DNA of 64,000 bases from positions 68,772,993 through 68,836,992 of the forward strand of contig NC_069132.1 in NCBI RefSeq assembly GCF_026914265.1, given 5' to 3'. Made by a program: the position numbers and the translations under genes. The notes under the pieces were generated by a model. It was not told the origin of the DNA. It saw only the letters and a list, made by a program, of their open reading frames with translations, and searched no databases. This document shows, piece by piece, positions 23,961-53,199 of the stretch. The first letter of the stretch is position 1, and each line of letters begins with the position of its first letter. This DNA is from Mya arenaria. Its lineage: Eukaryota > Mollusca > Bivalvia > Myida > Myidae.

Positions 23961-24028
23961 ATCAAACTGTGGAGATTTAATTTGTGGAGTTAAGCCAGAA
24001 GGCTGAAAGTGACATTAAAATTTAGGTT

Positions 24029-29112: not shown

Positions 29113-29172
29113 TTACGTCATTCGCCTTATTCCAGAAGCCCATAATGCTTTGCGAAAAAGGTGACTTCCGGT
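29113..29172 (+). promoter_or_regulatory. Candidate promoter: CRE-like, ZNF143-type and ETS motifs
   Basis: TTACGTCA at 29113-29120, 'gcccataatgctttgcg' at 29138-29154 (close to the known ZNF143/Staf motif) and ACTTCCGGT (ETS site on the other strand) at 29164 lie in one 60-bp block. This is a known layout of housekeeping promoters. An inverted counterpart lies at 32930-32975. Confidence 0.45.
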
Positions 29173-31048: not shown

Positions 31049-31408
31049 TAAAGCTGCATTCTCAGACTGACCATTTTGACAAAAAATGTCTGAAAACCAG
31101 TGATATAAGATTGCTGATGGAAGATCATAAAACATTTTTACAGAATTATCTTGACCGTTTTGACAAAAAAAGTCTGAAAACCAGTGATAAAAGATTGCTG
31201 ATAGAAGATCAGATAACATTTGTACGTATCTTTGTTTGAAAATGGATATATTTATGGTTAAAAAGCGTTTCTAACGCTTTAAGAAAATGGAGTCTTTTGA
31301 CAGTGTTTCAAACAACTGAGATCTGTTATTTTGTGAATCATCTTATATGACTGACTGAATTGAAGGCAATGATATCAAAATCGGTTAATCTGTAAGATTG
31401 CAGTTTTA
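31049..31408. mobile_element. Palindromic MITE family, copy 7, with internal duplication
   Basis: It runs from 'taaagctgcattctcagact' to 'ctgtaagattgcagtttta'. The left inner arm is duplicated in tandem ('ccagtgatataagattgctg' and 'ccagtgataaaagattgctg', about 82 bp apart). The right arm is decayed. Confidence 0.8.
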
Positions 31409-31879
31409 AAGGTGCATGTCCCTAAAGGTCAATTGGCAGGAGATCTCATCAAATTTAATGAAGAATCATACATTCAATGATGCAATTCAACTTATTCATT
31501 TTGATGAAAATCAGCATTTAAAGAAGTTACCATGAGCTCTGATTTTTTTGCTGTGTTTTTTTTTTATGACAAATTTATCATTTCTGTAGAAAATGTCTGA
31601 CACTATCATACAAATTGTAGCAAAAGAAACAAAAAATGGTTGTACAGAATTAATGTTTATTTAAATATCTTTAAAAAGAGTTGTTCATATAATAAAACAT
31701 TATGATGCACATTGTAAATGTAAAACATAACTAAAGTACAAGGACATAAAAAAATATTTAATTTTATATATTTATATGATTTTTGAATAATACTATTTCT
31801 TATGATAACAATAATAATAATAAGTGTTGAATACTAAGCACTTAACATATTATACATGTATGAATATCAATAACAGCAG

Positions 31880-32200
31880 TAAAACAACAACAGTTCAACC
31901 AACAAAAGAGATCCAACAAGTACTAGCAATGGGAATCAAACCAATATGACCCAACAGTGATTCAAATAACACTAGTTGTCTATCACACATTCTGTCCAAC
32001 AAGCAGTCCAAACAACACTGGTGGTCCAACCAACACTTCCAGTCCAACCATTTATAATTGTTCAACCAACACGTATGGTCCATCCAATATAGCGGCCCAG
32101 TAAGCAATAGATGCCAAACCAACAATAGCATGTCAGGTACTAGCTGTCCATCACGTTGCTACCAATCTAGCAGCCCAACCAATTGTAGTGATGTTCTTCA
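31880..32200 (+). repeat. Degenerate 'tccaaccaacac' repeat region
   Basis: Loose repeats of 'gtccaaccaacac' and 'tccaacaag' at 20-30-bp spacing give a purine/C-biased stretch. The 78-residue minus-strand frame here (WLDHQCCLDCLLD) follows from the repeat. An acceptor-like 'tttctttacag' on the minus strand near 32245 makes a 3' exon of the transcript suggested by the 32.95-kb promoter motif possible but unproven. Confidence 0.5.
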
Positions 32201-32929
32201 TTGAAAGTAATGATCTCAGAAGGTAACATCAGCATATTTGAATCATATCTGTAAAGAAAGGAATGGAACATAAAAAGCATATTTTTATAAAAAAGTAAGT
32301 TACTCTCCGACTTATTTATGAATGGGTTTTAAGACAATCTGGAAACCGATTTAATTCCAGGCCTGGGGGTATGCGACTAGTCCGGTGGCCATCATAATAT
32401 TTGAAAATAACAAATCATTCAGGAGACTACACAGGTGACAGCATGACATAATTACTCTATGTAAAATGTTTATTACATAGTAATAAAATACACACAGCAG
32501 TATAAATATCATAATTTATATTGATGATGATTTATTTATGTTCATTCATAAGACTATTAGTTATACCTGGTAATGTACATACAGATTCCTCATTAGATTA
32601 TGACTGTCAGATAGTAAAACAGACTAATGTATTATTTGTGTTAATTTTCAAAACAAATGTTTTAGAATAGATGAGAATTTGTTGTTTATAATACTCCAAT
32701 AAGAATAGTAACTGCAGTCTTTTCTGAACCATCTACCCCACCCACCAGAACTAACTGTCCAAGTAAACAGTCAAGCGATTTATAGCTCATGACATTCAAA
32801 TAATATCACAATAATGTAATATAAACTCATTAAAATGACAAATCTAATAAAAATAAATAAATTATAACAAACCTGGAATGATAATTTGTCCGTATTTATC
32901 GCTGTTATTGTACTTCGTCATAACCCGGA

Positions 32930-32975
32930 AATAAACCGGAAGTCACCATGCCGCAAAGGATTATGGTCTATTGGA
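32930..32975 (-). promoter_or_regulatory. Candidate minus-strand promoter, inverted copy of the 29.14-kb block
   Basis: On the minus strand, CCAAT is followed by 'accataatcctttgcgg' (ZNF143-like) and then 'ggtgacttccggtttatttc', which is identical to bases after 29160 on +. A donor-like CCAG|GTTTGT follows near 32873. A short frame MTKYNNSDKYGQIIIP reaches that donor, but no partner exon continues it convincingly. Confidence 0.4.
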
Positions 32976-33456
32976 AAGTCGAGAATTGAGTTTGAGTGCT
33001 GCTAATTGACAAGGTTACCGATCAGATTCCAGATCGATAATCACTTGTCACTTCAGGTGTAAATTGCTCTTGCAGGTTAAACAAACATTCAGATCATGCA
33101 TTGAGGCTCCTTTCAGATGATACCGACTCTCACACCGAAATATCCCGTGTCAAAACTGATGCATATTACAAATGGATGATGCGTTGATTTCGGGTCATTT
33201 ACGATTCCTGTGCGTCAAAACCCGGGAGCTCGGGTCAATTGAAAGCCCTGCAGTTTAATGTCACAGCCATTGAGGTTTTTGCCATTGTTTCAACTTGCCA
33301 AACCGAAAACGTTTGTAACTATGCAACGATTCGGACACTACCAAAATATTTAAATTATCGTTGTCATCATAGGCCAGAGATCGCTAAAAATTTGACTTTT
33401 CGAATTTTGGGGCATAAAAAAATTGCGGTCGGCGGTAAAAAATTACGGTCGGTCGG

Positions 33457-33490
33457 GTTACAGGAAACAGACATATTTTTTTTTTAGGCC
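33457..33490 (-). repeat. 34-bp element end, inverted copy of 27311-27344
   Basis: The match is perfect in reverse orientation. A GGTCGG-rich stretch (33420-33456) adjoins it and may be the subterminal part of the same element. Confidence 0.6.
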
Positions 33491-33599
33491 CAATTGTTCA
33501 ATCTCAACAGAAATTGGTCACAATATAATTATACATGTATGTATCTCCTAAGGTTTATTGAATGGCTAGTATAAACATGCTGGAGCTGTGCTACTAACT

Positions 33600-33805
33600 A
33601 TTAAACCTTATAATATGATAAATACATACACACTTGACACTTTTGGCAGTTGAAACCTAATATAACTTCAATTAAACAAAATCTCGAACATTTTCTGTCA
33701 GATTCATGATATTTAAATTCTTATCAGACTGATGAAATATGTGCCTTTTTGAGCCTCTAAGCACCCTTTTGCTTTTTAGCAGCACCCTGTCCTTTTTAAA
33801 ACATG
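33600..33805 (+). repeat. Dispersed repeat, paralogue of 59545-59695
   Basis: Shared phrases are 'cttgacacttttggcagtt', 'aaacctaatataacttcaat' (other copy 'aaacctaaaattaagtaaaa'), 'acattttctgt', 'attcatgatatttaaat' and 'agcaccctgt'. A third fragment ('tttggcagtataaacctaat') lies near 35755. Confidence 0.6.
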
Positions 33806-35127
33806 GCTTATACCCTAATACATATTACTTACTTATATTTATACCACACTTTGTTATTCAGGGGTTCTAGCTCTGTAACACAGAACAATAACAAGTTTGT
33901 GTCATGGAAGCCTGTAGATCGAGTCTCAGATTTCTGCCAAAAGTTCAAATTAATAAGGTCACTTTAAGCCGCGCACAGCGGAAAGAAACCGCTAAGGGAA
34001 GTAAGCTAGCGTCAATAATCTGAAGTTTTTTGGGCTTAAAAACACAAAGAAAGCCTTATCGGTTGACAACACTATAAAACTAATTAATTGGTCAATTATG
34101 AATGAGTTTACATCGTGTATGACCAAAATCCAATGTTAATATAACATCGGTCCATAATGTTGGTCAACATTGGGGCTCCTATGTTAACTCGTTGTTCGAT
34201 TATGGTTGCCGACATCATAATGTAAGTCCAAAGCTGGTACGTTAGTCTAACATTTTGTATTTGCTGGGTGTAAGGAGTGATGCAAGAAGAACACCTTTAC
34301 GAGTATGAATATATAGATTTTATTCAGTAAAGAATTAATAAACAAATATATGTATAGTTCAATGAATACTTATACTGGTTTGTTAAGAAACAAAGTCACT
34401 CCTGGTGGCTGTGTGTATGTAACAGAAATCTTCTAACTGCATTAAAGAACAGAACAGAATAGAAATAAAGAAAAACAATGAAAATATTCCGATAAATATT
34501 TTTTCTGTGAACACCCTTTGAAGACATTTTTGTAAAGAATGTAGAAAACAATTCCATCACAACAATTAATTTATTTGAAAATTGTCACAAAAAGACATTT
34601 AAAACAAAAAAGGACAATAAATTCTGAAACTTAATAAGAAACACTGAAGAGGTCAGAAGTCAAGAACGTTATTAACATGAAAATTGAACTTAGAAAACAA
34701 AGTAATTAACAAGAAAATTAAACTTGGAAAAAGCAACATTCAGGTGAAGAAAGAAGAGGTAAAAAGTTGAAAAAAGCTTAAAATAAAATTGAACCATATA
34801 TCTCTCTAAATTTAAGAGTGATTTAACAGCAATATGAAGTAGTTTAACCAAAAATATTCCACTGAATAAACAAGACGTTATTGTTGGAGGTCATATTTCT
34901 TATTTTAACATCAACATTTTGTTATCACTGATGAATACATACTGTAGAACAAAATAAACTATGGAAAACATTATTTTTAACAGTTGAACAATCAGCAGCG
35001 ACAACAGTATTTTTGAAACCACAAAGTAACATTATATCTGCGCTCTTGTACTTCAGAATAAAGTCCAGCAAATTATTGTTTTTTTTTATCAACACAGTCG
35101 GTCATCGAGATTTTCCTTCTTGAAATT
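33806..35127. other. 3' side of DNAL1; no gene seen
   Basis: The part nearest 35128 is probably the DNAL1 3' UTR; reverse-strand AATAAA signals occur near 34570 and 34318. Around 33850-33950 a weak tRNA-like B box ('gatcgagtctcag') is seen. Around 34120-34265 there are degenerate repeats of 'aacattggggctcctatgtt' type. The rest is AT-rich with no coding signal. Confidence 0.4.
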
Positions 35128-35165
35128 TTAGTCTTCATCATCATTATCTCTGATTATTGGAACAC
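35128..35165 (-). CDS. DNAL1: DNAL1 exon 9 with stop
   Basis: It completes Gly and encodes [11 protein letters not shown] then TAA, matching the family's acidic end (DGTPVIKEDEEDD in vertebrates). Confidence 0.95.
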
Positions 35166-38100
35166 CTGTAAAATAAATAACAAGTTTATATATGTTACAA
35201 ATCATTGCATATCGATGGCCTTACTTCAAAAATGCTGAGGCTGCATTTTTCTGTTTCGGAATTTTGACATCACTATAATCATAATGGCGAGCCGCATCTA
35301 CCTGCATAATGGTGGGCAAATAGTCCAATGAGAAAATGGAGTTGAATCATGTGATCAAAATGTCAAGCAATGATTGGATATCTCACAGAGAAGTAAAAAT
35401 GCCGAACCTTCAGAACTTGTAACTACAAAAATTTTAACTTTGGCATTTTGTAAAATAAAATGTGTGATCAAATAACCAAGATAAAATACTAAAAATGTTT
35501 CTACTGAAAACATGGGATTTTGTAGCTTCGACATTTGGAAATGAGGCAATCAATAAGTTGCATATGGGGTTTTGGCTTAAAAGCTATAGAAGGGTTCTGC
35601 ACTTCATCTTTTTTTGGTAGCACAATTCTGCCCTCATAGAGACCAGGACAGGAACCCTTCTGCTCTCAGAGAATTAAATACTAATAATAATCAAATATTC
35701 TTTTATTTTCATCAAACTTGCAATATGATTATAAACACAAACAAAATCTACATATTTGGCAGTATAAACCTAATATAACTTCAAATTAAAAACAATCATA
35801 ACTCATCAACTACTAAAGCCAGGATTGAGGGCCATGCTACACATGTGTGTATTGTCTCAGGCAACAAGTGTACCAAGTTTCATTTGAACATCTTGAACAG
35901 TTTTTGAGTTACGAGCCCAGGTATCAAGGCTTTGACAAAACCTTGACATTTTTGAAAGCAGTTGTTATGTTACAGAAATATATTTTATTATATGCCTTCC
36001 TGTGACTAATAAAGATTTATAGTGAAATTTTAAATGATATTTCACTTTTTCAAACAGTGAAAATAACAATTTGATATATTTCACTGTTTTGAAATTTAGC
36101 CTGTTCTCTCATTTATATAAAACTTCAGCTTGCACATGGCTGGGACACAATATTAACGACGTCATTTCTGAAATGAAGTTACATGCGCCTACCAATTGAC
36201 ATGTTTTTTTCAAATAAATTTTATTAAATGTCCTTTAATTCCAATTTTAGACATCTTATAATAAGGAAAATTGTTTCTTTCAGTATAAGATAGCAGAAAA
36301 TCTAACCTTGTGAACACCCAAAGTGAATATTTCACTTGTGGCTACGCCACTCACGAAACATAACTTATGGTGCTCACTCGGTGATATATATTATGATCAG
36401 ACACTGAAACAAACAATTGTCCTCTATATATATAGAGTATGTTGATCTTACCATCAACCTTCTTGACTTTGACCAGCTTTTCCTGGACAGTTTGTCTATA
36501 GCCCTTCTCTGTGTTATTTAGGGTTTCTTCCAGCGGATTCCCGACAAATACTAGATCCTCGAGGCACGGAAGGTCCGCCTAGAAATTGGGGGAAAGAGGA
36601 AATTCGTTTGTGGAATATTTACAGTGACAATGATTTTAAATCTTATGAAATATTCTGCAGATCAAAAGTTTGTCATTTAAACTTCCACAGTTATTAAGAT
36701 TTAAAAGTTATCAATGACGAGGTTTGCAACATTGTTAACATTTACATTTTTATGATTGTTAACCTCGAAATCTTCACTGCTCTGAAAGTTTCATATATGG
36801 ACACACTTAAGATCAAATTGACCAAAAAGATAAAAAATTGCTTCCAAAAACCGTTAAAAATAGATGGTAGCTTTTGGCGCATTTCTTCTTTGAAGAGTAT
36901 TCAACACATAGCAATGGGACTTCCTAGGAATTCTTAATGACTTAAGTTGAGATTCACCAAGTACTTCTTATGAACGTTTATGAATAGAACTTAAGATAAA
37001 TGAAATTCCTATCTTAAGTTGATACAGGTGTCATTTTTCTTAAGAAAAACTTAAGTTTTATGAATACGGCCCCTGAAGTACTTCTTACAAATTTTGAGAT
37101 GAGTATGTATGATTATAAAGCTGCAGCCAATTGTATTAAAATGGTTAAGTTTTGGATATGTCAAGGTTATTATTTGGTCAATATTTATCCTAAAATAACT
37201 TCTAACCAATCAAATCAATTTTGATGAGTCATCCAACTAAGTCATTCTGTGCACAACTGATTGAAGTTTTATGTAACTGGATGTGGGTCACTAATAATCG
37301 AATTTAACTCTATTGATATAACAATAAACGGTCATTTAAATTTAAAAGTTGAGATAAAATCACTCACCAGCTTGGAAAATTCTCCCATGTCCTTCACTTC
37401 ATTATTTGACATAAACAACACCTGGAGAATAGAAATGTTAAACAGTGTGTGAATGCCACGTGATAAATTATGTCATAAATGGCAATATTCCAATGAAGAC
37501 TTTAAACAAAGCCTTTATGATTTAAGAGATGTAAAAATTTCGAAACAGAAAAAATGCAGCTTCCACATTTTGAAGTAAGGCCATCGACATCTGACAATTA
37601 ACAAAAGTTGACTTGATTTGCTATACATATAAAACTTTGAATGTTTAATTTAAATTATGACAGAAATAATATGCATTTGAACATGTATTACTGACAACTT
37701 CAACACTATTAATGTCTGTTTGTTTGTTTTTTCAGTTAAAAAAGGGCATAACACAACAAATATTCAACTCGGAGTTATGGGCTTTGCTATGCATGATTGT
37801 ATTGTCTCTGGCAACAACTGTACCATGTTTCAATTAAAGCCCTTAAATGTTTTTTACGTTATGGCTAAGGTTAAAGGTTTGCACTACAACAATGGTGACA
37901 CCAAGTCTACGACAATATCCCAGTCATTTGACTAAATTCCTTTGTCCAAACAAAAAGACTAAATAAAAAAATAATTTTACCTTCAACTTTTTGAGGACGT
38001 TTATTCCTTTAAGTTTCTCAATTCTGTTGTATGAAATCCACAGCTCAGTCAATGTATCACCAACTGCCTCCTGCTCAGAAAAAACAACATGAATGAGTGA

Positions 38101-40910
38101 CTGCAATGCAACACATAATAGTTGGAGCATATATAGAGGGGAAATTCCCTGTTTGACGCCAGCTCACCCATCGCAGACCCAACCAATGGCACATTCCAAT
38201 TTAAAAAAAACCCAGGAATTATGGTTGTCCAGCTAGCACAGTGGTTAGCAAAGTGCTTCTCACCTAGATGACCTGGGTTCAATCACTGGCCTGGGAGCAT
38301 GTGAGTTTGGTTTGAGGTCACCAAGCCTGACAAGTGGGTTTCCTCTGGGTACTCTGTTTTACCCACAGTTACACAAGACCACACTCTCGTGTAACATCAT
38401 ACCAACAAGAGCGATTGATATAATGTTGTAATAACTTGTTTCACAATCGTTGTAAAACAAATAAGTTTAAACTAACAACATGGTTTAAAATGTATTGGTG
38501 GAGGTTGTTCACATCAGATCTCCAGAAAGCAAACCTTCAAATTAGATAAACCTGATTTCATACTGACTGTAATTACAAATGGCAGTGACATCAGCCCAAA
38601 CTCTAAATATATGTAAGTCTGCTCTGAGTATTCAACAAAGCAATACCTGCCCTTTATCATTCTGCAACAGCCTAAAGGTTGCTACTCACCAGTCCAGTTA
38701 AAGACTTGATATTGTTTCTCCCAAGCGACAAGATCCTCAGGTTCTCTGAAACACATTATTTCTAATGTTTAAAATACTGCACAAAGGATTACTGACACTA
38801 GGTAAATAAAAAACAATAGTTTACTAGTATTGACAATTTGGAAATATAAAGCAATAATTAACTCATTTGATAATTATCTCATTGGATATTACTTGCAATG
38901 TTGTAATCAAATTCAACCGGTTTTGCTTTTTCTAAATACCGTAGTACAAAATGAGCAGTTTTAAATATAATACATGCCATTTATAAACATAATAATTTTC
39001 TCCATCAATTCTCAAAATACATGTTTAAAATTATAAATGAAAACAAATTATACTTACTCAAACCATTTAAGTTTGCAATCTTTTCAATACAGTTTGTTGA
39101 GAGAGACAGCTGTCTGTAATTAATAAAGCAGGTAAAACAGGGTAGTATATAACCTACTACAGCAGCATACTCAATAGAATATAACCTATTAATCGGAACA
39201 CCACTACCATGTTCCTTTCAAACAACCTCGGAGGATGTATATAAATGTACTTAACATGAAACAATGTTAAGAAAAAGTTGCGTTTCTTATGACTTGACAC
39301 TTTGGAATCTTAATGATTTATAAAATAATATACTTCACTGGGAAATAATCTGAAATAATCTGAACTTTATAAGTTATAGAAATTACTATTTAAAACAGTG
39401 CAATTGATTAATATTATAATTATCAATTAAACAAATTATTTTTTCTATGCACCGACTTATATGAAAGGCTCTTCATATGGCAGAAATGGCTGAGGTGTTC
39501 TGATTATGTAAGCCTATGAAATGACTGATCAACATGCATTATTTAAGTATAATGATATAAGTCATCATATTTTGGAGTGCAGATTACAGAAATATGATTA
39601 TAAAACATTCTTAGTCAGTCAGCAAATATTGTAATAAAGTAATTCCTTATCTAGACTAAGTAAGGAAATATCATTTGTTTTGCAAGTCTTGATTATAGTT
39701 TATTTTGATTTTCAAAAAATAGGGTAAGTATAAGTATATTACTTACGTGCATTTTACAAGCGTGGAGAGGGAGGCATCCATTTTTTCAACTGGTGGCAAC
39801 TGGCTTATTAGACTGACAACTTCAGCATCACAAGCCTTACAGCCTTCCTTTTCTTCCTGAAATAAGCATAAGTTTAGATGTTGAAGTTTTAGATATTGCA
39901 CCTAGGGCAAGCATATCATATTCTTAGTAACTGATTGAGTAGCAAATATAGGTTGGATTTTTTTCCGCTAAATAACAGCTAGTCAGAAAATAATATAAAA
40001 TTCACACATTCATTGAAATATTTTGTTCTGATTTATGCCATCTGTATAGGGATATCAAACTTCTTAACCTAATCTGTATATAGGGTAATATCTATACCTC
40101 CTATTTTTAACTTTGTTTTATTTAACTTTTCCGTTTCTTTTACAACCATTAATAACATTATTGTAGATTGACACACAAATGTCTAGGTCCCCAGCAGGGG
40201 TTTGGGTTTGACATTAATGGAAGATAGATACTAAGATATTATAATATAGATGCTATTTACAACACAAGTCTATCTATCTATCTATCTTGCTATTACGCTG
40301 CCATCTTATATTCAAACACCAATAAGATTTACCAGACTAATGTACCCACTATGTTTCAGACAAATTAAAGTAAAAACTGACAATCACAAATTTTCATTCT
40401 ATCCTCACTCAGTTGTACTTTGGAACAGTTTGCCCAATCGTATTGTCACTATCCCCACCCCTGACACATTCAACGTGGCTGTGGCAACCATTAGATAAGC
40501 GAGCAGTGTTTTTATCCTTTTACCAGTTCACCAATCACTTTTTATCATGTTACCTAAATTGTGTTCTCTTTTATACCCTAGTTCTCACTTTTCTGATGTG
40601 ATTTGCCTCATCAGTGTTTTATTATTTTTCACTAACAAGCCGGCGCGCACCGTTCATGTCAGTAACACTCGGAAGAGGAGTTGACATTAAACAGAGATAG
40701 ATCGGTTACCCCACCCACTTCTTTGTACATGCATATATTCCTTGTATTTACTTACAAATTTTGCAATCGCGTCCTTGATAGTGGTTCCCTTCGACTGAAA
40801 CGATAATTGATATCATTATCAATAAACAGGCCTTCATATAAGCAAAAATATTTTTATGAGAAACAAAACATTGATAAAAAAGAAAAGAAAAACACTGAAG
40901 TACTGACCAT
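35128..40910 (-). CDS. DNAL1: Dynein axonemal light chain 1 (nine coding exons)
   Basis: Splicing 40908-40910, 40756-40794, 39747-39856, 39058-39113, 38690-38745, 37981-38070, 37368-37421, 36452-36578 and 35128-35165 gives 190 residues, the same length as human DNAL1. All joins are in phase with GT-AG borders. Diagnostic stretches, compared from memory with the vertebrate protein, are [51 protein letters not shown] and [16 protein letters not shown]. The leucine-rich repeats cover about residues 48-158, and the acidic tail ends RDNDDED. In known systems this cytoplasmic protein binds the motor domain of the gamma (outer-arm) dynein heavy chain in motile cilia. Exon 1 supplies only the initiator Met. 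The gene is head to head with LIN52. Introns hold a LINE 3' end (intron 2), a SINE (intron 5) and small repeats. Confidence 0.97.
36452..36578 (-). CDS. DNAL1: DNAL1 exon 8
   Basis: It encodes [20 protein letters not shown] and continues to VKVKKVD, ending one base into a Gly codon. The acceptor is TTTCTAG. Confidence 0.96.
37368..37421 (-). CDS. DNAL1: DNAL1 exon 7
   Basis: Eighteen codons, [18 protein letters not shown], form the fourth leucine-rich repeat, phase 0 on both sides. Confidence 0.95.
37981..38070 (-). CDS. DNAL1: DNAL1 exon 6
   Basis: Thirty codons, [20 protein letters not shown] then [10 protein letters not shown], hold the most conserved block of the protein. Confidence 0.97.
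38224..38464 (+). mobile_element. tRNA-derived SINE, second copy (in DNAL1 intron 5)
   Basis: The same head, core and 3' end are present as at 17536: 'gcacagtggttagca', 'gggttcaatcactggcctgg', 'gacaagtgggtttcctctgg', 'acaagaccacactctcgtgt', 'cacaatcgttgtaaaacaa'. It is more diverged than the first copy and antisense to DNAL1. Confidence 0.85.
38690..38745 (-). CDS. DNAL1: DNAL1 exon 5
   Basis: It encodes [18 protein letters not shown], the second leucine-rich repeat, and the donor is GTGAGT. Confidence 0.96.
39058..39113 (-). CDS. DNAL1: DNAL1 exon 4
   Basis: It encodes [18 protein letters not shown], the first leucine-rich repeat, with one base on each side shared with neighbouring exons. 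Confidence 0.96.
39747..39856 (-). CDS. DNAL1: DNAL1 exon 3
   Basis: It encodes [20 protein letters not shown] then [16 protein letters not shown], matching the family's [14 protein letters not shown] segment. It ends with two bases of a split Thr codon. Confidence 0.95.
40262..40705 (+). mobile_element. LINE 3' end relic (in DNAL1 intron 2)
   Basis: The + frame ends [15 protein letters not shown]... [35 protein letters not shown] then stop. The FxP(H/R)xxxxWNxLP pattern is the known C-terminal signature after the reverse transcriptase domain in CR1/Jockey-type non-LTR elements. A 3' UTR-like stretch follows to about 40705. It is 5'-truncated, as is usual for LINEs. A (TATC)n-like run marks the left edge. 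Confidence 0.75.
40756..40794 (-). CDS. DNAL1: DNAL1 exon 2
   Basis: Thirteen codons, [13 protein letters not shown], lie between TTTCAG and GTAAGT, phase 0 on both sides. Confidence 0.93.
40908..40910 (-). CDS. DNAL1: DNAL1 exon 1: start codon only
   Basis: ATG is followed at once by a donor, GTCAGT. Joining to 40794 gives [14 protein letters not shown], which aligns with the vertebrate start MAKATTIKEAL. The rest of the exon is 5' UTR within the shared promoter region. Confidence 0.85.
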
Positions 40911-41010
40911 TTTTCTTCGTTTCTAATGACAACAATGTATTGGCAAGGTGCCCCGAGATATCGTTTTGGTAAAACTCGTTTTTGAAAACTATGCCCTATT
41001 GGTAAAAAAG
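40911..41010. promoter_or_regulatory. Bidirectional DNAL1/LIN52 promoter (100 bp between start codons)
   Basis: Only 100 bp separate the DNAL1 ATG (40910, minus) and the LIN52 ATG (41011, plus). Two inverted CCAAT boxes (ATTGG at 40939 and 40998) lie inside. The LIN52 start sits in AAGATGGCGG, a match to the known YY1 motif that overlaps start codons in many genes. A four-codon upstream frame (ATG at 40991) precedes LIN52. No TATA box is seen. Confidence 0.8.
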
Positions 41011-41047
41011 ATGGCGGAAAGTTCAAAGCGAAAAAAGGCAAACACAG
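41011..41047 (+). CDS. LIN52: LIN52 exon 1
   Basis: It encodes MAESSKRKKANT plus the first base of a Gly codon, with donor GTGAAA. The start is chosen because upstream frames close at once and the ATG lies in a YY1-type context. Confidence 0.9.
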
Positions 41048-44000
41048 GTGAAATTATAACCTTAAATATATATTACGCTTATAAAACATCAGTAAAAATG
41101 AAGTGATTGAATATGTTTGTAATTTAAACATTTAAAGGAAGTTTTAACGACCCATGGATTTGTGTACTATACGTGTTTTTATAGGAATCAATAGGTTACA
41201 CAACACTATTTAAAAGTTGTGAGGCCTCCACTCACTAGTGGACAATATTAGGTATAATATTACAGGAATTTGGTCAAACTCACTTGGCAAGGTTGTTTGG
41301 CTTTCAGACTAAATTAATCTACATTCTTTGTCCATTTATTTAAGAGGAAAGAGGCAAGAAACATAACAGATAGTCAACAGACAAAAGTTGACTAGAGAGT
41401 AGAATATTAGATGAAATATATAATATATATATTGATTTATTAGAAAATTTGGTAAAATATAATTGACCACTGTCACCAGTATCTATTTCACGGGACTGCA
41501 AAAACACTCTAGAAATACACAAAGAATGACTTAAAGTGAAAGAGTCTCTGAATATAGATTAATGTGGCTAATGTATGTCTTAGTTCACCTAAATGGACGT
41601 CATTATCTCATAGAGTCTTTGACTATTTTTGTACATGGCAGACTAGTTACAGGGATTCATAACAAATTTCAAAATGATTAACGCTCATTATTGTGGGTAA
41701 TGTTTGTTTTCATTAAATCAGTGAAATACCTTAGATTCTCTATGTTAGTGTCTGTTTTTTTAATTGAGTTTATCAAGGTCTGCCTGCGCATGTGGGCAGT
41801 ACTATGGCTTGACAGTCCCGCGACACCATCACCCTTTTACCGGTAATTGTGTTTAAATGCCATAAGTGACATGAAATAGAAATGATTGTTAAGACTTGAA
41901 GAAACTGAGTGAGATGCAAGATATCCGGGTGCAATACCGTAGTAGCTGTTTGCCAAGAGACCTCTTGGTTTTTAGCTGGACTATTCGAAGAGTATGGAGA
42001 GCTATACTACTCACCCATGCGTCGGCGTCACACCTTGGTTAAGATTTTGCATGCAAGCACACATAGGTTAATATCTCAGCAACTACTTGAGGTATTGCAT
42101 TGAGACTTTATACAGTGGTACTCAACCATCCAACCTACTTAATTAACCAAGTTAGAAAACTCTAATTTGCATTTAATGCAAAAAATAGGCCTTTATTATT
42201 CAACTCAGAAATTCTGGTTAAGGTTTTGCGTGCAAGCACACATAGGTTAATATCTCAGCAACTACTTGAGGTATTGCATTGATACTTGATCCAATGGTAC
42301 TCAACCATCCAACCTACTTAATTAACCAAGTAAGATAACTCTAGTTTGCATTAAATGCAAAAAATAGGCCTTTATTATTCAACTTAGAAATTCTGGTTAA
42401 GGTTTTGCGTGCAAACACACATAGGTTAATATCTCAGCAACTACTTGAGGTATTGCATTGAGACTTGATACAGTGGCACTAAACCATCCAACCTACTTAA
42501 TTAACCAAGTAAGATAACTCTAGTTTGCATTTATGAAAATAATAGGCCTTCATTATCCGATTAGAAATTCTGGTTAAGGTTTTGCGTGCAAACACACATA
42601 GGTTAATAACTCAGCAACTTCTTGAGGTTTTGCATTGAGACATGATACAATGATACTCAACCATCCAACCTACTTAATTAACCAAGTTAGATAGCTCCTG
42701 TTTGCATTTAATGCAAGTAATTGCTCTTTATTATTCGACTTAAAAATTCTGGTTAAGGTTTTGCGTGCAAGCACACATAGGTAAATATCTCAGCAACAAC
42801 TTGAGGTATTGCATTGAGACTTGATACAATGGTACTCAACAATCCAACCTACTTAATTAACCAAGTAAGATAACTCTAGTTTGCATTTAATGTAAATAAT
42901 TGCCCTTTATTATTCAACTATAATATTCTGGTTAAGGTTTTGCATGTAGCACACATAGGTTAATATCTCAACAACTACTTGAGGTATTGCATTAAGACTT
43001 AATACAATGGTACTCAACCATCCAACCTACTTAATTAACCAAGTAAGATAACTCTAGTTTGCATTATATTCAAATAATGGCCCCTTCTTTAGTCATAGAA
43101 ATTCTGGTTAAGGTTTTGCTTGTTACCACTTTTAAGTCAATACCTCAGCGAATACATCATGTATTGCATTGAAACTTTAAACACATGCTCACAACCATTT
43201 AACCTTCTTTTTTAATCAAGTAAGATAACTCTATCTTTCATATTATAAATTTTTTGCCCCTTTATTTTGCAACTTAGAAATTCTGGTTAAGGTCTTGCAT
43301 GTTAGCACACATAGGATAATATCTCAGCAATTACTTGATGTATTGCATTGAGACTTTATACAATGGTATTCAACCACCCAAAGTAATTGAATAACCAAGT
43401 TAGATAACTGTATTTTTCAAATAATGGCCCTTTATTATTAGACTAAAAAATTCTGGTTAAAATGTTCCATGTAAATACATTTATCTTAATATCTCAGCAC
43501 ATCATGTATTGCATTGAAATCTAATCTAACAGTGATCCATGCATGTTTCGCCAAAACTTTTCAATCCTTACACTGAAGAGCGGCGGAAAAGTCAAGCGCT
43601 GTCTCTGTGACAGCTCTTGTTTAACATGCTCTGTGTAAAGCACCGATATATGTGATACAACTTTCCTGAGTTTAACCAGTGCTGAATGAACCATCTAACC
43701 AGTATTATTCTTTTGATACCGAACGCAAGTCAAAAGAGCTGATATCATATTTTAACGTCTTTCGGTTTGACCCGACCAGGATTTGAACCTGTGACCTTCT
43801 GCACCGAAAGCAAACATTCTACCACTCATTGGGGCAGTCATGTGTATAAGCCATGGTCTTATATTCCATAAATGCCAGCCACTCTGTCCGCCTCAGCAAA
43901 CCATTGATGATTTTTTTAAATCATATAAATTTTTACGACAAACAAGCGATATTCAAGGATCCCACAACCAGAAGGGTACACGTATTCTGAATCTGCAAGG

Positions 44001-47000
44001 GTTTAGATGAGGTTTTGGAGCTTGATATGCAAGATGGCGGTGAAACCATGACGAAATAGGATTTTTGTAACCTGTTTTCGCCTAGTAAGTGGTACAAAGT
44101 ATATATTTCAAAAATATCATGACACGCATTCGGCTCTACAATTACTATGCCTCACTCGGCTTTCTATGCCCCAGAAGGTTGGCATATTAAAATCACACCG
44201 TCCTTCCGTCCGTCCGTGTGTCCGGCTCAATAACTTGCCACATGTGTTCCACATACCAAGAAGACGTGTCGCGTGCAAGACCCGTGCCCCTACCTCAAAG
44301 GTCAAGGTCACACTTAGTGTTTATTCACAATGGAGTGCTGCATATAGGACATAGAGTATAGGTTGTCGTGTCCGGGCTGTAACTTTCCCTTGTATGGACA
44401 GATTTTAAAATAACTTGCCACATGTGTTCCACATACCAAGATAACGTGTCGCGTGCAAGACCCATGTCCCTACCTCAAAGGTCAAGGTCACACTTAGTGT
44501 TTATTCACAATGGAGTGCTGCATATAGGACACAGAGTATAGGTTGTCGTGTCCGGGCTGTAACTTTCCCTTGTATGGACAGATTTTAAAATAACTTGCCA
44601 CATGTGTTCCACATACCAAGACGACGTGTCGCGTGCAAGACCCGTGCCCCTACCTCTAAGGTCAAGGTCACACTTAGTGTTTATTCACAATGGAGTGCTG
44701 CATATAGGACATAGAGTATAGGTTGTCGTGTCCGGGCTGTTACTTTCCCATGTATAGACAGATTTTAAAATAACTTGCCACATGTGTTCCACATACCAAG
44801 ATAACGTGTCGCGTGCAAGACCCATGTCCCTACCTCAAAGGTCAAGGTCACACTTAGTCTTTATTCACAATGGAGTGCTGCATATAGGACATAGAGTATA
44901 GGTTGTCGTGTCCGGGCTGTAACTTTCCCTTGTATGGACAGATTTTAAAATAACTTGCCACATGTGTTCCACATACCAAGACGACGTGTCGCGTGCAAGA
45001 CCCGTGCCCCTACCTCAAAGGTCAAGGTCACACTTTGTGTTTATTCACAATGGAGTGCTGCATATAGGACACAGAGTATAGGTTGTCGTGTCCGGGCTGT
45101 AACTTTCCCTTGTATGGACAGATTTTAAAATAACTTGCCACATGTGTTCCACATACCAAGACGACGTGTCGCGTGCAAGACCCGTGCCCCTACCTCTAAG
45201 GTCAAGGTCACACTTAGTGTTTATTCACAATGGAGTGCTGCATATAGGACATAGAGTATAGGTTGTCGTGTCCGGGCTGTTACTTTCCCATGTATAGACA
45301 GATTTTAAAATAACTTGCCACATGTGTTCCACATACCAAGATAACGTGTCGCGTGCAAGACCCATGTCCCTACCTCAAAGGTCAAGGTCACACTTAGTCT
45401 TTATTCACAATGGAGTGCTGCATATAGGACATAGAGTATAGGTTGTCGTGTCCGGGCTGTAACTTTCCCTTGTATGGACAGATTTTAAAATAACTTGCCA
45501 CATGTGTTCCACATACCAAGACGACGTGTCGTGTGCAAGACCCGTGCCCCTACCTCAAAGGTCAAGGTCACACTTTGTGTTTATTCACAATGGAGTGCTG
45601 CATATAGGACATAGAGTATAGGTTGTCGTGTCCGGGCTGTAACTTTCCCTTGTATGGACAGATTTTAAAATAACTTGCCACATGTGTTCCACATACCAAG
45701 ACAACGTGTCGCATGACAGACCCGTGTCCCTATCTCAAAGGTCAAGGTCACACTTTGGTGTTTATTCACAATGGAATGCTGCATATATAAGGACATAGCA
45801 GTGTCGGTTGTCAACTATGGGTGGTATTTTTTATGTTTAGAGGCAATTTAAAATAACTTGCCATATGTATTTGACATGTAAAGGCAAGATCGACTTTTCA
45901 TGTACTGACCTTGTTCATAGGTCAATATCACAATCGGGGGCATTCGTCACATACTGTGACAGCTCTTGTTATTTCATGCGTTTAGGTTACGCAATAAAAA
46001 AGTTATTGAAGGAAAACCTTCGGCCAGTCTTTTGTTTACAAATGTGGGAGGCGAGAATTTGATACTTTTTATGACGTTTAAGTTCCAAAAACACATATTT
46101 TTGCAATTTGGTTTCTGCTTTAACATTATTTAAATGTGGTATTTTAATTTCCTGACAATTCCTTTGCTGTACAAGAGCCTTCATGGTAAGTGAGGCAAAG
46201 TAATTGTACAGCCAAATGCGCGTCATGATATTTTTGAAATATATACTTTATACCACTTACCAGGCGAAAACAGGTTCCAAAAATCCTATTTCGTCATGGT
46301 TTCGCCGCCATCTTGCATATCAAGCTCCAAAACCTCACTTAAACCCTTGCAGATTCGGAATACGTGTACCCCCCTGACAACCAAAGTTCATTTTATTTAT
46401 AGAAGACTGAGACATACTAAAATTGAATAATTATTAAAAAAGAGTTTTTTGTGAATTATTATTTTCAGGTGACTCCAATTGGATGCAGTATCCAGATGGC
46501 GATCAGCTGTTAAGTTTTGAGAAGTTAGACCGAGCCTCACCTGATCTTTGGCCAGAAAAAAGTAAGTCTGAAATAAATATAAAATTAAAATGTAGGTAAA
46601 TGTATGTGTCTGACTTTCTATAGTCTATTGTTGTAGCTAAGACATTGGCTCTTCTAATTCCATCTGTGTCTGTCAATAACATATTTTAATTTTAAGCTCA
46701 TCTGAGCACAAAGTGAGTAATGATGATTGTCCATTGTCTGTGGTCAACATTTTCCTTTAAATAACTTCTCCTAAAACACTGGGGGTAATTTCAACCAAAC
46801 TTCACAGGAATGTTCATTTGGTGGTACTCTTTCAAATTCCTTCAATAAAATTGGTTCCATGCAGAACTCTGATTGCCATGGCACCTGAAAAGGACAAAAT
46901 TTGAAAAACTTCTTCTCAGAAACTGCTGGCCTGATTTTGAAACAAGTTCACAGAAATGATCCTTAGGGGACCCTCTATTAAATAAAGTTCTTCACCTTGT

Positions 47001-50000
47001 GTTGATTCGTCTAAAGGCTTAGACACCAGTGGGTGGGGCTACTTTTTACTGTATATCTGTATGGAAAACTTTGAAAATCTTCTGGCCTAATTTTAAAATA
47101 ATCTACAGAAATGTTCCTAAGGAACGGACATTCACATATAAAATAATGCTTTCACTGTATTAAAGCATGCAACTTATCTGTTTTAAGTTAAAAACATTGG
47201 GTCCAGAAATTTCCCTTATTTCCATGCTAGGTACCCCACATTATGAACTTAATGTGCATCCGTGGGTCCCCCAAGTTAACATTAATGTAGAGCAATTAGG
47301 ACTCCATATTTATAATGAGAGAGCCCAAACTTATCAAGGAGGGTCACAGGAACCTTAGCTGAAAAATCCTTGGGAAAACCCTTTATGTTCTAATTTAGTG
47401 TTATATGTATATACATTGTACAATGTTATGTTTTTAATACTTCATTACAGTTCCTGGTGTGTCAGAGTTTGCTGCTGAAAGAATGGTGATTATAATTTTG
47501 TTCTCATTAGATGTTTTTGGGCTGTTTAAACTCACAATCCACCTGTTCATTATATGGATTTCTCTCGATCACTGATTGAAATTAACTTATAAATCTGAAT
47601 ATGATTTTGTTATAACCAGAATGACACTAGTCTTCAAAAAGAAAATTTTCAATATTTTTAGCTATAATTGTATGTTTTTGTGACTATTCAAAGTATTAAT
47701 GTGTGTATCTTGTTAACAATGGGATCGTCAGTTGGAGCATGACGGAAACCCGCCCAAATGGATGGCCGACTTGGAAAACGAGGACATCAATCTTCTTCAA
47801 GGTATCAATCCAAGTTTTCATTTCTGTCATTAGTGTATGTGTGTATGCAATCTAACATTGTGAAGCAAGAATTGAGGTTCTGATTTTTATGATATTTGAT
47901 TTCAGCTCACCTGACCACTAAATGCTCAGGGTAAGCTTTTCCCGTAGTCCAACATCAGTTTTTGGTCCATCATCTGTCTGCCCTCCTTCTGTCAACAGTT
48001 TCTTCAAACAGCATATCCTCCTTAACCTCATGGCCAATTTAGAAGAAACTTAACTGTTATGTTCCTTGGATGGTGCCCTTTCAAAGTTGTTCAAAGAAAT
48101 GAATTCCATGCAGAACTATGGTAACCGAAAGGAAACAATCTTGATAATAAAGCCTAGAGCTTTGATAGTTGGTGTGTTACATTGTCTAGTGGTCCTCCAC
48201 CAAGTGTGTTCAAATCATGCTCCGTGGGTCAAAACTGGCCCCATCCTGGGGTTCACAAGCTTTTTAGAAAGGGAAATCTTTGAAAAAATCTTCTTGTCTG
48301 ATCCCACTAGGCCAAGATCTTTTAAATTTTTATGTACAGTCAAACCTGTATTAAGTGGCCACCCTTGGGAAATGATCAAAGTGGCTGCTTAAGACAGGTG
48401 GCCACTTAATCCAGGTTTGACATTTCGGCCTTTAGCTTTATTCAGAGATGGAGTATGTATCTTAACCACCACCTCACACCACAATCAGTAACATCTGTAT
48501 CAATATTATTGAAGAAGGCTGAATACAAATACATTTGTATAGATAAAATAAATTTATTTCAAATTTATAAATAAAATACAATAGATAAATGTTGATACAA
48601 GGCATAAACAAAACACACCACATATCAGTCTACACATTTCACGCTTACGCTTAAGTAAGAAATTGATTCGAGTCCTTCCACAGTTAAATTCCTTGGCAAC
48701 ACTTCTTGCACTACGGCCGTTTTCTAATAACTTTATAAACTCGACACGTTCTTTCAGAGTCAAACACTTTCGATTAGTCTTAGTTTCAGCCATAATCAAA
48801 GGTAAAAACATATCAAGAACAATGCATTGTAAATATCCGTTCGTAGAAATATAAATCCGTGCACTTTGAAAAATAATATTAAAGTGCATAAAAATTGTAC
48901 CTCGTTTAACGCCTTCGAATGACAATGCAAACTGTGAACTCATAAAAACCGGTGTTTTTGTCGGTATTTAATAATTGTCTTCGTAATTATTTAATTATCT
49001 TATTAATTGTGTCATTAATTGTGTCAATTCTGATCAAAACATTCGCCGACGTGTAATAAACATGATTTCTCGATGAGTAAACACGCATGGCAATCGTGTG
49101 ATGCAATATTCATTTTCATTGGATGACGGAGATTCCCGAGGCCGTCGTTCTTTTCCGTAAACTTTTATACGCAATTAAAGCTGTGTATTGGAAAAATTTA
49201 TAAGCGGAAGTGTTAGTGACAAGGGATTAGTGGCCGCTAATTAGTGTTTATATGGCTTCACGGGGACAAAAATTAGTGGCCGTGGCCGCGTTAGACAGTT
49301 GGCCGCTTAATGCACTTACATTATATAGTAAAAACGTACGGGGGGAATTTGGAGTGGCCCGTTAAGGCAGGTGGCCATTTAAAGGAGGTGACCGTTCAAC
49401 CAGGTTTGACTGTAGCGTCATACAGTAGTTCTATATGAAGTTTGTTCAAATTGTACCCCTGGGGTAAAAACTAGCCATGCCCGAGGAGGGTCACAAGTTT
49501 TATATAGATTTATATAAGAACAACTTTGAAAGACTTCTTGTCTGAAACTGCTGGGCCCAGATGCTTGATATTTTGTATGTAGCATCATACGTTGCTCCTC
49601 CACCAAGTTTGTTCAAATCATGTCCCTAGGAACAAAATTGGTCATGCCCTGGGTTCACAAAATTCCTATCGACTTAAATAAGATAAACATTGAAACACAT
49701 CTTGTCTGAAATAGTTAGGCCCAGACCCATACATGTGATAACGTCCCGTCGATTATCTTAATTTTACCAATGTAAGTCAGCTATTTTGCCTGTCCGGGAC
49801 ACTGGTCGTAAAACACAGGACATGTTGACACTAATCCGTTAATTGGTACGTGTGTCGTCGAGGTCATCGTCAATCACCCGATAATTGATCTATCGGCCTA
49901 TTGTTGTGCTAAACGAGTGGGGGAGGGTTCTTGTATACAAATTCATTGTTTTCATATGGATTTGTTTGGTCTTATGAATGATAGCTTTTAATTGATGAAT

Positions 50001-52264
50001 TGATATTTTTCACACATTTTACCAACAAATGAGCATGAAGGTAAGTTCAAAGAAAGTGACAAAATGAGTAAAAAAAACAAAATTAAAACACTGAAAACAT
50101 CCCATATTCCTTTCAAATTTCAAAGTCGATACGTCGTTATACTTTTAACAACTTATGCGTCCATAAGGAATTTTAGTGTTTTGACTTTTTTTCCGAACTA
50201 TCGTGTGTATTTTTACGCCGAAATAAAACTGACGATATGGGGTTTACAGGTGGTTATATAGAGTGCTTTAATCACGTGACCATGGTAAGTCACGTGATCG
50301 CTTTATACACCCGATTGTTGACACGTCTCTATCAAAATTATATGCATCTCCAAACGGAAAAAAGCTCATCTACTGGAAAATCTTCTTTATCGTCTGAAAA
50401 ATATTGTGTGTCATAAATTGCAAACGTTTTAAATGTGATGAAAAAATAAATATTTTGTAACGCATGTTCTCAAAAGCGCGGGAAAACAGGTGCCCGTATA
50501 GTTGTTTATTTCCTGTTTTGATGAAACCGAAAGTAGACTGCATATCCTCCTGGTTAGCACTTCATTTAAAGCCTGGGAAAATATCTGGTGTTTTTATTTT
50601 TTCAAGAAAATGCAGAAAAAAAACAACCATGTGAAGTAAAAAATACGTCTTGGCAGTCAAAATAGGTACATTTTCCCGACGTTAAAAACGACTAAAATAG
50701 CCCCAGATATGCTATAGAATGCACCACAGACGTTCCCCATTTAAAAAAAATTCCGGACCCCCCTAGTGTGCGTTGACATTACGATGGGTGTCCCGGAATC
50801 GACCCAAGAAATTATCACATGTATGCCCAGACCCTTGATAGTTTGTATGTAGCAGCATAAAGTAGTCCTCTATCAAGTTTGTACAAATGCCCATGGGGTC
50901 AAAACTGGCCTCGTCCTGAGGTTCACAATTTCCTAAGACTAAAAAGTGGAAATTTTTGAAAATCTGCTTGTCTGAAACTCCTAGGCCCAGACCATTTATA
51001 TTTTACATGTAGCATCTACTAATTCATAGTAGAATGGTGAAATTAAATGGTTTCATATACCAGGTAGTTTTTTACAGAGGTGTGAATATTTTCAGAGTTT
51101 GGAAGTTTGACAACGTCCCAGCTTATGGAGAAAGTAAAAGGCTTACAAAACCTGGCTTATCAGCTTGGCTTGGATGAAGGTATAACAAACACACATTCAA
51201 AATTTATTTTGTCATGGAAACAGTATTTACTATAGACCTGATAAAACATAAATACAGGCAAATAGGCAATCAATTTGTCATAAGTATTGTATTAGGTGAT
51301 GCTACCACAGGGGTACATATCTGAATGTCAAAGTTTTTTTGACAAGCAATAGCTGCAATACACTTCAAGCATTACAATATCTGTAAGATAAAAAACAATG
51401 CCGCCATGTCCTCCAACCATCAACACAATTTTTTAAAACATAAACTGTCATTAATTTTTGACAGAATAAAGCTCCATAACACCAGCAATATATGAGTGGT
51501 ATTTACAAGAAATTGCGCTATTTGCATGAAAACGATCTTGACATAAGTAAATTTGAAAATAAAATCCCTACCTACCCTACCTTGTAATTAAAGGGATGTT
51601 CCCCTAAACAAAAAAATATTTGTTTTAGGCCCGGCATAAAATTATTCAAACTCTTTTATTGTTTTAATCTTTTTAAAACCGCATGCTCTTATAAAAGATA
51701 TTGATAAAAAACATTGGTGTATATTCTATGGAAAAAAAAATAATATAAAGCCAAAAATGGATTTGAGTACAATTCCTTGTTTAAAAGCAATTACTCAAGT
51801 GCATTTTCTGTGCTTGTATTATTATTTTTTGGAATACTGACAAAAGGTTTGTACTAATAAAATGAGAAAATGGAATATTGAAAGAGTTATATCATACCAA
51901 ATTTTAAATCATGCTTGGGTTATATGTGGTAGGATGAGCTGAGATTGTGCCTTTTTGAGATGAGATATTGAGGCGAAACATAATTTTGGACTCAGAAAAA
52001 GATATGTATACTTGTCAAATGTACATACCAACTAAAGTTGATACAACAACACTAAGTCATTGATAGCAGTATTGGTAGAAACCACTAGATGTATAAGACT
52101 TATCTTCAACACTTTTTGTTCTGTCTGAAAGAATTTGGCAAAAAATTATCAAGACCCATAAAAGCCAGAATGATTGTAGTCGAATTATTATGTTGTTGAC
52201 TTTTTCAGCCCGAGAAATGACCCGAGGAAAGTATCTGAACGTCTTAGAGAAGCAAAACAAGTGA
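41011..52264 (+). CDS. LIN52: LIN52, MuvB/DREAM complex subunit (six exons)
   Basis: Joining 41011-41047, 46469-46561, 47451-47485, 47732-47801, 51096-51179 and 52209-52264 gives 124 residues in phase through GT-AG introns; human LIN52 has 116. Conserved blocks, compared from memory, are LLSFEKLDRASPDLWPE, PGVSEFAA, PPKWMADLENEDINLLQEFG and MEKVKGLQNLAYQLGLDE, then REMTRGKYLNVLEK. The LxSxExL motif (L26, S28, E30, L32) is the known pocket-protein docking site, and S36 in RASP corresponds to human Ser28, phosphorylated by DYRK1A to assemble DREAM. LIN52 acts in the nucleus with LIN9, LIN37, LIN54 and RBBP4 to repress or activate cell-cycle genes. The N-terminal MAESSKRKKANT is lineage-specific. 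Introns are swollen by mobile DNA. AATAAA at 54494 may mark the 3' end (inference). Confidence 0.97.
41967..43621 (+). mobile_element. Tandem-core element, copy E4 (179-bp core, about 9 units)
   Basis: Units begin at 42065, 42244 and 42423 with 'aggttaatatctcagcaact' at 179-bp spacing and continue, decaying, to about 43500. The left unique part has 'agctggactattcgaagagt', and the right end is 'ctctgtgacagctcttgtt', shared with E2, E3 and E5. It lies in LIN52 intron 1. Identity falls towards the right end. Confidence 0.85.
43762..43836 (-). mobile_element. tRNA-Arg-like SINE head or tRNA pseudogene
   Basis: On the minus strand, 'aatgagtggtagaatgtttg' (A box), an anticodon stem closing a loop TTTCGGT (anticodon position TCG) and the B box GGTTCAAATCC with a perfect T stem are seen. 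The acceptor stem has at least two mismatches, so a functional tRNA is doubtful. Downstream 'tcaaaccgaaagacgttaaa' could be a SINE body. Confidence 0.5.
43974..46371. mobile_element. Element with 182-bp inverted terminal repeats, split by E5
   Basis: Arms 43974-44155 and 46190-46371 are inverted copies, about 94% identical (about 11 differences in 182). Without the E5 insertion the element would be about 590 bp. It has no coding capacity. Both arms contain CAAGATGGCGG, a strong YY1-type motif. The flanks hold a similar 'acaacca' phrase on both sides but no convincing target duplication. Confidence 0.85.
44163..45970 (+). mobile_element. Tandem-core element, copy E5 (180-bp core, 9 units)
   Basis: It starts 'ctatgccccagaaggttggc', has a short (GTCC)n-like microsatellite, then units at 44231, 44411, 44591, 44771, 44951, 45131, 45311, 45491 and 45671 spaced exactly 180 bp, and ends 'actgtgacagctcttgtt'. 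Units at 44591-45130 and 45131-45670 repeat as a nearly identical 540-bp block. Each unit carries 'aaggtcaaggtcacactt'. Confidence 0.92.
46469..46561 (+). CDS. LIN52: LIN52 exon 2: pocket-protein docking motif
   Basis: It encodes DSNWMQYPDGDQLLSFEKLD then RASPDLWPEK, with acceptor TTTTCAG and donor GTAAGT. It contains the LxSxExL motif and the RASP phosphosite. Confidence 0.97.
46694..47380 (+). repeat. Dispersed degenerate repeat, 'agctcatctgagcacaaagt' type
   Basis: It starts 'agctcatctgagcacaaagt' and carries ~170-bp diverged units with 'ctgattttgaaac', 'cagaaatgttcct' and 'ggtcacaggaacctt'. The relative is at 47903. Confidence 0.6.
47451..47485 (+). CDS. LIN52: LIN52 exon 3
   Basis: It completes Ile and encodes PGVSEFAAERM, matching the family's LPGVAEFAAS. 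The donor is GTGATT. Confidence 0.93.
47732..47801 (+). CDS. LIN52: LIN52 exon 4
   Basis: It encodes LEHDGNPPKWMADLENEDIN then LLQ and one base of Glu, matching PPKWMAEIERDDIDMLKE. Confidence 0.96.
48337..49412 (-). mobile_element. Tigger/pogo-like element, internally deleted, TA target duplication
   Basis: The ends 'cagtcaaacctgtattaagt' and (reversed) 'cagtcaaacctggttgaacg' are inverted repeats, and TA flanks at 48335-48336 and 49413-49414. Paralogous units of the host repeat read 'ttgtatgtagcatcata' without the insert, confirming TA duplication. Only the N-terminal part of a transposase remains (next entry). A related fragment lies at 3620-3735. Confidence 0.92.
48554..48793 (-). pseudogene. 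Pogo-class transposase N-terminal HTH fragment
   Basis: From the ATG at 48793 the frame reads MAETKTNRKCLTLKERVEFI KLLENGRSARSVAKEFNCGR TRINFLLKRKRE. This fits the CENP-B/Psq-type helix-turn-helix that starts pogo and Tigger transposases (known pattern K-R-x-LTLKxKxxII...G.S...A..F.v..sTI). After about 52 residues the frame runs into unrelated sequence and stops. The DDE catalytic domain is absent, so it cannot transpose by itself. Confidence 0.85.
49729..50824. mobile_element. MULE-like element: 13-bp inverted ends, 10-bp target duplication
   Basis: It begins 'atacatgtgataa' and ends 'ttatcacatgtat', perfect inverted repeats. The 10 bases GCCCAGACCC precede (49719-49728) and follow (50825-50834) it. 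The host repeat elsewhere has this phrase only once ('ggcccagaccc'). A 9-10-bp duplication is typical of the Mutator superfamily. No transposase is seen in the 1,096 bp. A palindromic 'cacgtgaccatggtaagtca' then 'cgtg' lies near 50273-50298. Confidence 0.8.
51096..51179 (+). CDS. LIN52: LIN52 exon 5
   Basis: It encodes FGSLTTSQLMEKVKGLQNLA then YQLGLDE, the best conserved block (helical segment that packs with LIN9 in the known MuvB core). Confidence 0.97.
52209..52264 (+). CDS. LIN52: LIN52 exon 6 with stop
   Basis: It completes Ala and encodes REMTRGKYLNVLEKQNK then TGA, matching SREMTRGKFLNILEKPKK. The acceptor is TTTTTTCAG. Confidence 0.96.
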
Positions 52265-53190: not shown

Positions 53191-53199
53191 CATTGTCAG

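Follow-up and report, generated by a model that had tools for sequence, protein, structure and literature searches.

Two protein-coding genes face each other with their 5′ ends in a 64,000-nucleotide stretch of the genome of the bivalve Mya arenaria (contig NC_069132.1, forward-strand positions 68,772,993 to 68,836,992; hereafter the window), an arrangement expected of bidirectional promoters. One gene, on the minus strand, encodes the axonemal dynein light chain 1 (DNAL1), and the other, on the plus strand, encodes the MuvB/DREAM subunit LIN52. Their start codons, at 40910-40908 and 41011-41013 respectively, are separated by exactly 100 bp. We consider it likely, on the evidence of the sequence, that this gap is an ordinary, very short and TATA-less bidirectional promoter of DNAL1 and LIN52, and the pair is a real candidate for a very compact member of a class that is common in animals. 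A preliminary description of the window had placed the two start codons 100 bp apart on opposite strands and had argued that the genes must share regulatory DNA. The spliced models of both genes bear out this geometry, and regulatory DNA common to the two is close to unavoidable because the gap is only 100 bp long. A transcript start within the gap is also suggested, independently, by the sequence context of the LIN52 start codon.

Both genes are complete. DNAL1 has nine coding exons that run from 40910 to 35128 on the minus strand, and LIN52 has six that run from 41011 to 52264 on the plus strand (Table 1). All 13 introns of the two genes have GT-AG ends, and the joined frames are free of stops. 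The spliced DNAL1 product is 190 residues long, and residues 1-190 align with residues 1-189 of the 8j07 chain named ‘Dynein axonemal light chain 1’ (266.2 bits, E = 1.4e-78); structures of outer-arm dynein light chains, for example 1ds9, also match. The six LIN52 exons read 124 residues followed by a stop. When queried without the 12-residue exon 3, the LIN52 product matches the Pfam family LIN52 (PF10044, E = 8.4e-31) and the structural chains 6c48, 4yos and 4yoo. Its docking stretch (LLSFEKLDRASPDLWPE) has intact LxSxE and RASP elements, as 17 of the 18 residues aligned with the 4yos peptide are identical.

The first coding exon of DNAL1 contributes only three bases and its donor is imperfect, and these facts would fit a gene whose true start lies elsewhere, in a distant non-coding or different first exon, such that the gap is not the DNAL1 promoter. 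We regard this as highly improbable. With a generic donor matrix, the donor that follows the DNAL1 start codon scores 6.6, which is the best of the 11 ATG/GT sites on the minus strand between 40795 and 46000, and the other 10 score 2.8 or less. Read back to the preceding stop, exon 2 contains no ATG in its frame. In addition, the N-terminus of the product, M-S-K-G-T-T-I-K, is colinear with residue 1 of both 8j07 and 1ds9.

CpG is not depleted in and around the gap. Four CpG dinucleotides are observed where 3.23 are expected (observed-to-expected ratio 1.24, compared with 0.49 for the whole window), and the ratio is 1.08-1.20 across 40600-41199, with flanks of 0.25-0.34 (40000-40599) and 0.13-0.46 (41050-41649). 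There is no TATAWA sequence between 40855 and 41060. On the DNAL1 strand the 100-bp gap holds no ATG where 2.3 are expected. On the LIN52 strand there are upstream ATGs at 40926, 40935 and 40991, all opening short frames that stop by 41005, with the stop of the last one ending at that position. To exclude all of these upstream ATGs, the LIN52 leader would have to start downstream of 40991 and thus be shorter than 20 nt. A scan for promoters of the sigma-70 type, a model that does not apply to animals, returned none.

The LIN52 start codon is embedded in a YY1-type context, AAGATGGCGG (41008-41017), and the 12 bases around it (AAAGATGGCGGA) resemble the core promoter element known as the translation initiator of short 5′ untranslated regions (TISU). 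The match to SAASATGGCGGC, a consensus described in mammals, extends to 10 of 12 bases and misses the first S and the last C. Given the ATG, the chance that the other seven bases of the 10-mer agree is P ∼ 1.7e-5. Three exact copies of the 10-mer are found in the window, and the two that are not at the LIN52 start lie in the two arms of a single inverted repeat. The TISU element has been tied to YY1 and to efficient initiation near the transcript start (PMC5577775), and a figure legend in a study of amphioxus describes counts of YY1 motifs per promoter category and a comparison of ubiquitous promoters with and without YY1 (PMC6292497).

Several observations weigh against a bidirectional promoter at this position. 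At the donor that follows the DNAL1 ATG, position +3 is a C, and a score as high as its own is reached by 10 of the window's 167 ATGGT words. The CpG peak is modest, in that 5.5% of 300-bp stretches reach its height and 10 separate places in the window exceed it, and within the gap itself the CpG count is only slightly above expectation. Eleven places in the window reach at least 10/12 to the TISU consensus, including a 12/12 match at 46304 and an 11/12 match at 44030, both in the inverted repeat, and an 11/12 match at 51400; moreover, a mammalian consensus may not hold for this animal. Given that so many places reach this score, the weight of the LIN52 match lies in its position at the start codon.

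If the gap is indeed a bidirectional promoter, one TATA-less stretch of about 100 bp, presumably in open chromatin, would load two divergent initiation complexes. LIN52 would start from its YY1/TISU-type core, with a transcript start at approximately 40992-41006 and a leader that is probably shorter than 20 nt. DNAL1 transcripts would start inside the gap and proceed leftward through a first coding exon that supplies the ATG only and then into the first intron. The proximal upstream DNA of each gene would consist of the core promoter and leader of the other, and for this reason DNAL1 and LIN52 would be physically coupled and, presumably, jointly regulated. The most likely outcome of such coupling would be broad basal expression of both genes, and an additional cilium-specific input to DNAL1, perhaps through an RFX-like site, could be added on top. 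We find it somewhat unlikely that two independent core promoters abut here by chance and that control in common is limited to steric overlap. Each side can be assigned an element of its own, with YY1/TISU for LIN52 and an X-box-like site for DNAL1, but with 100 bp between the ATGs the proximal elements of one gene would necessarily fall in the core region of the other.

Our motif survey of the gap examined 24 patterns, and therefore none of the CCAAT, X-box or cell cycle genes homology region (CHR) motifs is significant alone. Two CCAAT boxes had been reported in the preliminary description together with the YY1-type start context. Both boxes are present, on the minus strand, as is the YY1-type context, although the boxes are near background: 3.1% of the window's 100-bp stretches hold at least two CCAAT pentamers. 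Distances of 68 and 88 bp between a CCAAT box and a start codon are in the usual range. Compared with the flanks RR...SR preferred by NF-Y, one of four and two of four bases fit. Given their frequency and poor NF-Y flanks, the CCAAT boxes were rejected as proof of a shared promoter. On the DNAL1 strand, GTTGTCATTAGAAAC satisfies the X-box consensus RYYRYYN(1-3)RRNRAC (PMC4168999), as do sites in 4.7% of 100-bp stretches. Under an X-box matrix of our own making, 10 sites in the window rank above it, and as high a score is reached in 1.5% of 100-bp stretches, a value that is uncorrected for the number of motifs tried. At these frequencies the site was rejected as proof of RFX control. The CHR-like hexamer TTTGAA occurs twice between 40855 and 41060, where 0.21 are expected per 100 bp, and on this basis it was rejected as proof of DREAM control. 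A cell cycle-dependent element (CDE) is expected four bases upstream of a CHR, and no GC-rich stretch is found four bases upstream of either CHR-like site.

These motifs bear on a more elaborate possibility, which we consider improbable, that the shared promoter ties cilium assembly to exit from the cell cycle, with RFX inputs (via the X-box) and DREAM inputs (via the CHR) acting on both genes. The X-box-like site is 8 bp from the DNAL1 ATG, and TTTGAA is found both in the gap and within exon 1 of LIN52. In Caenorhabditis elegans, DRM is present on most promoters of DRM-subunit genes, most such transcripts rise in the mutants tested, and 423 of 1418 DRM sites are in bidirectional promoters (PMC5683655). 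As DRM occupies the promoters of its own subunits as well as bidirectional promoters in this worm, a DREAM input could conceivably reach DNAL1 as well. However, the X-box, CHR and CCAAT motifs are each near background with 24 patterns examined. Neither CHR-like site has a CDE beside it, though for DREAM targets the CHR is said to be required and the CDE not essential (PMC5683655). Furthermore, LIN52 is gated by phosphorylation: DYRK1A phosphorylates LIN52 to assemble DREAM (PMC5683655), and exit from the cell cycle therefore does not require any transcriptional link to cilia. In PMC4168999, DNAL1 is named only in the legend of an orthologue table and in a reference, and not as an RFX target. 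Housekeeping functions are reported to be enriched among amphioxus bidirectional pairs (PMC6292497).

Table 1. Positions in the window of the coding exons of DNAL1 and LIN52, the gap between their start codons, and motifs in and around the gap.
Feature	Position	Strand	Basis or remark
DNAL1 exon 1, coding part (ATG only)	40908..40910	-	donor GTCAGT directly after
DNAL1 exon 2	40756..40794	-	spliced gene model
DNAL1 exon 3	39747..39856	-	spliced gene model
DNAL1 exon 4	39058..39113	-	spliced gene model
DNAL1 exon 5	38690..38745	-	spliced gene model
DNAL1 exon 6	37981..38070	-	spliced gene model
DNAL1 exon 7	37368..37421	-	spliced gene model
DNAL1 exon 8	36452..36578	-	spliced gene model
DNAL1 exon 9, coding part and stop	35128..35165	-	spliced gene model
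Gap between the two start codons, putative bidirectional promoter	40911..41010	.	ATG positions; GC 0.36
LIN52 exon 1, coding part (MAESSKRKKANT plus one base)	41011..41047	+	spliced gene model
LIN52 exon 2, with docking stretch LLSFEKLDRASPDLWPE	46469..46561	+	spliced model, structure match
LIN52 exon 3 (IPGVSEFAAERM, first codon split), weak donor GTGATT	47451..47485	+	spliced gene model
LIN52 exon 4	47732..47801	+	spliced gene model
LIN52 exon 5	51096..51179	+	spliced gene model
LIN52 exon 6 and stop	52209..52264	+	spliced gene model
YY1/TISU-type motif AAAGATGGCGGA around the LIN52 ATG	41007..41018	+	10/12 to SAASATGGCGGC
CCAAT pentamer (TGCCAATAC), 68 bp from the LIN52 ATG	40939..40943	-	near background
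CCAAT pentamer (TACCAATAG), 88 bp from the DNAL1 ATG	40998..41002	-	near background
X-box-like (RFX) site GTTGTCATTAGAAAC, 8 bp from the DNAL1 ATG	40919..40933	-	matrix and consensus
CHR-like TTTGAA in the gap	40981..40986	+	not significant
Second CHR-like TTTGAA, inside LIN52 exon 1	41022..41027	-	not significant

Bidirectional promoters are a familiar feature of animal genomes. They have been attributed to about 10% of genes (PMC4089025), and in amphioxus to 25% of neighbouring genes (3,950 of 15,884), with values of 12.83% for mouse and 7.84% for zebrafish (PMC6292497). Head-to-head arrangements are reported for 32.2% of Drosophila genes and for 11,379 genes of the sponge Amphimedon (PMC4773876). 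DNAL1-LIN52 resembles animal bidirectional promoters, a class defined by starts within 1 kb, in its divergent genes and short gap, and differs from them in that only 100 bp separate ATG from ATG. The pair would be a new member of this common class, and only a residual linkage in mammals makes it more than a routine case. In the open-access literature searched, we found no description of DNAL1-LIN52 as a head-to-head pair, and nothing was found there on DNAL1 with a bidirectional promoter.

The linkage had been described in the preliminary description as possibly ancient, and human DNAL1 and LIN52 map to 14q24.3. An association table for pig places both genes, among others, within one 1.30-Mb interval in the order ACOT6, DNAL1, PNMA1, MIDEAS, PTGR2, ZNF410, FAM161B, COQ6, ENTPD5, BBOF1, ALDH6A1, LIN52, VSX2 (PMC12189728), which is assumed here to follow the map. 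In a table for cattle, DNAL1 and LIN52 share one 0.88-Mb interval, the genes from PNMA1 to LIN52 being ordered as in pig and DNAL1 being written last (PMC12075139); neither table gives strands. The proposal of linkage thus finds support in one interval in each of the two species, whereas the head-to-head order is not kept in pig, since nine genes separate DNAL1 and LIN52, which are ten places apart in that list. Neither the pig nor the cattle gene list shows DNAL1 and LIN52 as a head-to-head pair. Both lists show ALDH6A1 as a close neighbour of LIN52 (PMC12189728, PMC12075139). With ALDH6A1, a metabolic enzyme, as this neighbour rather than DNAL1, LIN52 seems to be differently partnered in mammals. 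Human ALDH6A1 and LIN52 are presumably divergent. In a list of human muscle genes the two share the sign ‘positive’ (PMC6125682).

The residual mammalian linkage suggests an old association between DNAL1 and LIN52. A history in which an ancestral bilaterian head-to-head pair was kept by shared regulation and then disentangled in the vertebrate line is possible, although we hold it only tentatively; it is compatible with a bidirectional promoter in the present gap. If 20,000 genes are assumed, about 0.1% of random gene pairs would be as close as DNAL1 and LIN52 are in pig, but this arithmetic was made after the pair had been seen. In the amphioxus study, the majority of 372 putatively ancestral pairs are reported to be lost in vertebrates (PMC6292497), and DNAL1-LIN52 would fit this pattern. 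Against this history, the two genes are non-adjacent in both the pig and the cattle lists, closeness can mean a conserved neighbourhood without a common promoter, and no 14q24.3 neighbour was recognized in the window by a scan that was weak. The most far-reaching version, in which a bidirectional promoter as old as the bilaterians coupled a ciliary motor gene to a DREAM subunit, carried RFX and CHR inputs and was split in vertebrates, with the neighbourhood kept and LIN52 re-partnered, is in our judgement quite doubtful. If the pair is old, it would allow a clean test, set by nature, of whether gene order is maintained by shared promoters, and comparison of the invertebrate pair with the separated vertebrate genes would test whether leaving a shared promoter alters regulation. 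If it is local to this lineage, it is one more among thousands of bidirectional pairs.

Wider microsynteny was sought by Pfam scans in all six frames over approximately 1-14999 (one frame only for the minus strand of 14701-14999), 15000-24901, 25100-35001 and 52300-62201, along with three single open reading frames (ORFs) and two sequence searches against solved structures. Outside the Pfam scans were 24902-25099, 35002-35999, 40950-46399, 51302-52299 and 62202-64000 (apart from the ORF at 60050-63547), as well as the plus strand of 36000-40949 and the minus strand of 46400-51301. The only neighbour matches to turn up in these scans were to DUF4812, PT and DUF2574, all under the curated cut-off. 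As a positive control, scanning recovered LIN52 in two of three plus frames and DNAL1 in none of three minus frames, with one FATC match under the cut-off. Because this control shows that short exons escape the scan, the missing neighbours are weak negative evidence. A listing of splice-flanked exons yielded 26 candidates, of which seven outside both genes passed a GC filter, and no gene could be named from them. Relatives of DNAL1 and LIN52 in viral contigs, and of DNAL1 in prokaryote genome contigs, were sought and none was confirmed, as expected for animal genes.

Intron 1 of LIN52 carries two repeat structures. The arms of a 188-bp inverted repeat (43969-44156 and 46189-46376, 93% complementary), which contain the TISU matches of 11/12 and 12/12, enclose 8.8 copies of a 180-bp unit (44229-45812). 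The repeat and its array look like a non-autonomous mobile element with an internal satellite. A second tandem array at 42036-43416 consists of 7.7 copies of a 179-bp unit.

Elsewhere in the window, the minus strand of 60050-63547 is an open frame of 1165 residues with internal repeats (ASGNWTVNQGRATGNRN...), for which neither Pfam (at E 0.1) nor the solved structures (at E 1) gave a match; it may be a single large exon belonging to a gene that evolves fast. The open frame at 48554-48967 on the minus strand includes the stretch LTLKERVEFIKLLENGRSARSVAKEFNCGRTRI, which seems to resemble the N-terminal DNA-binding part of Tigger/CENP-B-type transposases. At 17537-17608 on the plus strand, a tRNA-like Rfam match of 31.3 bits (cut-off 29 bits), on which ARAGORN makes no call, is perhaps the head of a short interspersed nuclear element. 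Finally, a long repeat tract at 21964-23660 (CHGCYVPILCHGC...) is open in several frames on both strands and forms a satellite-like array.

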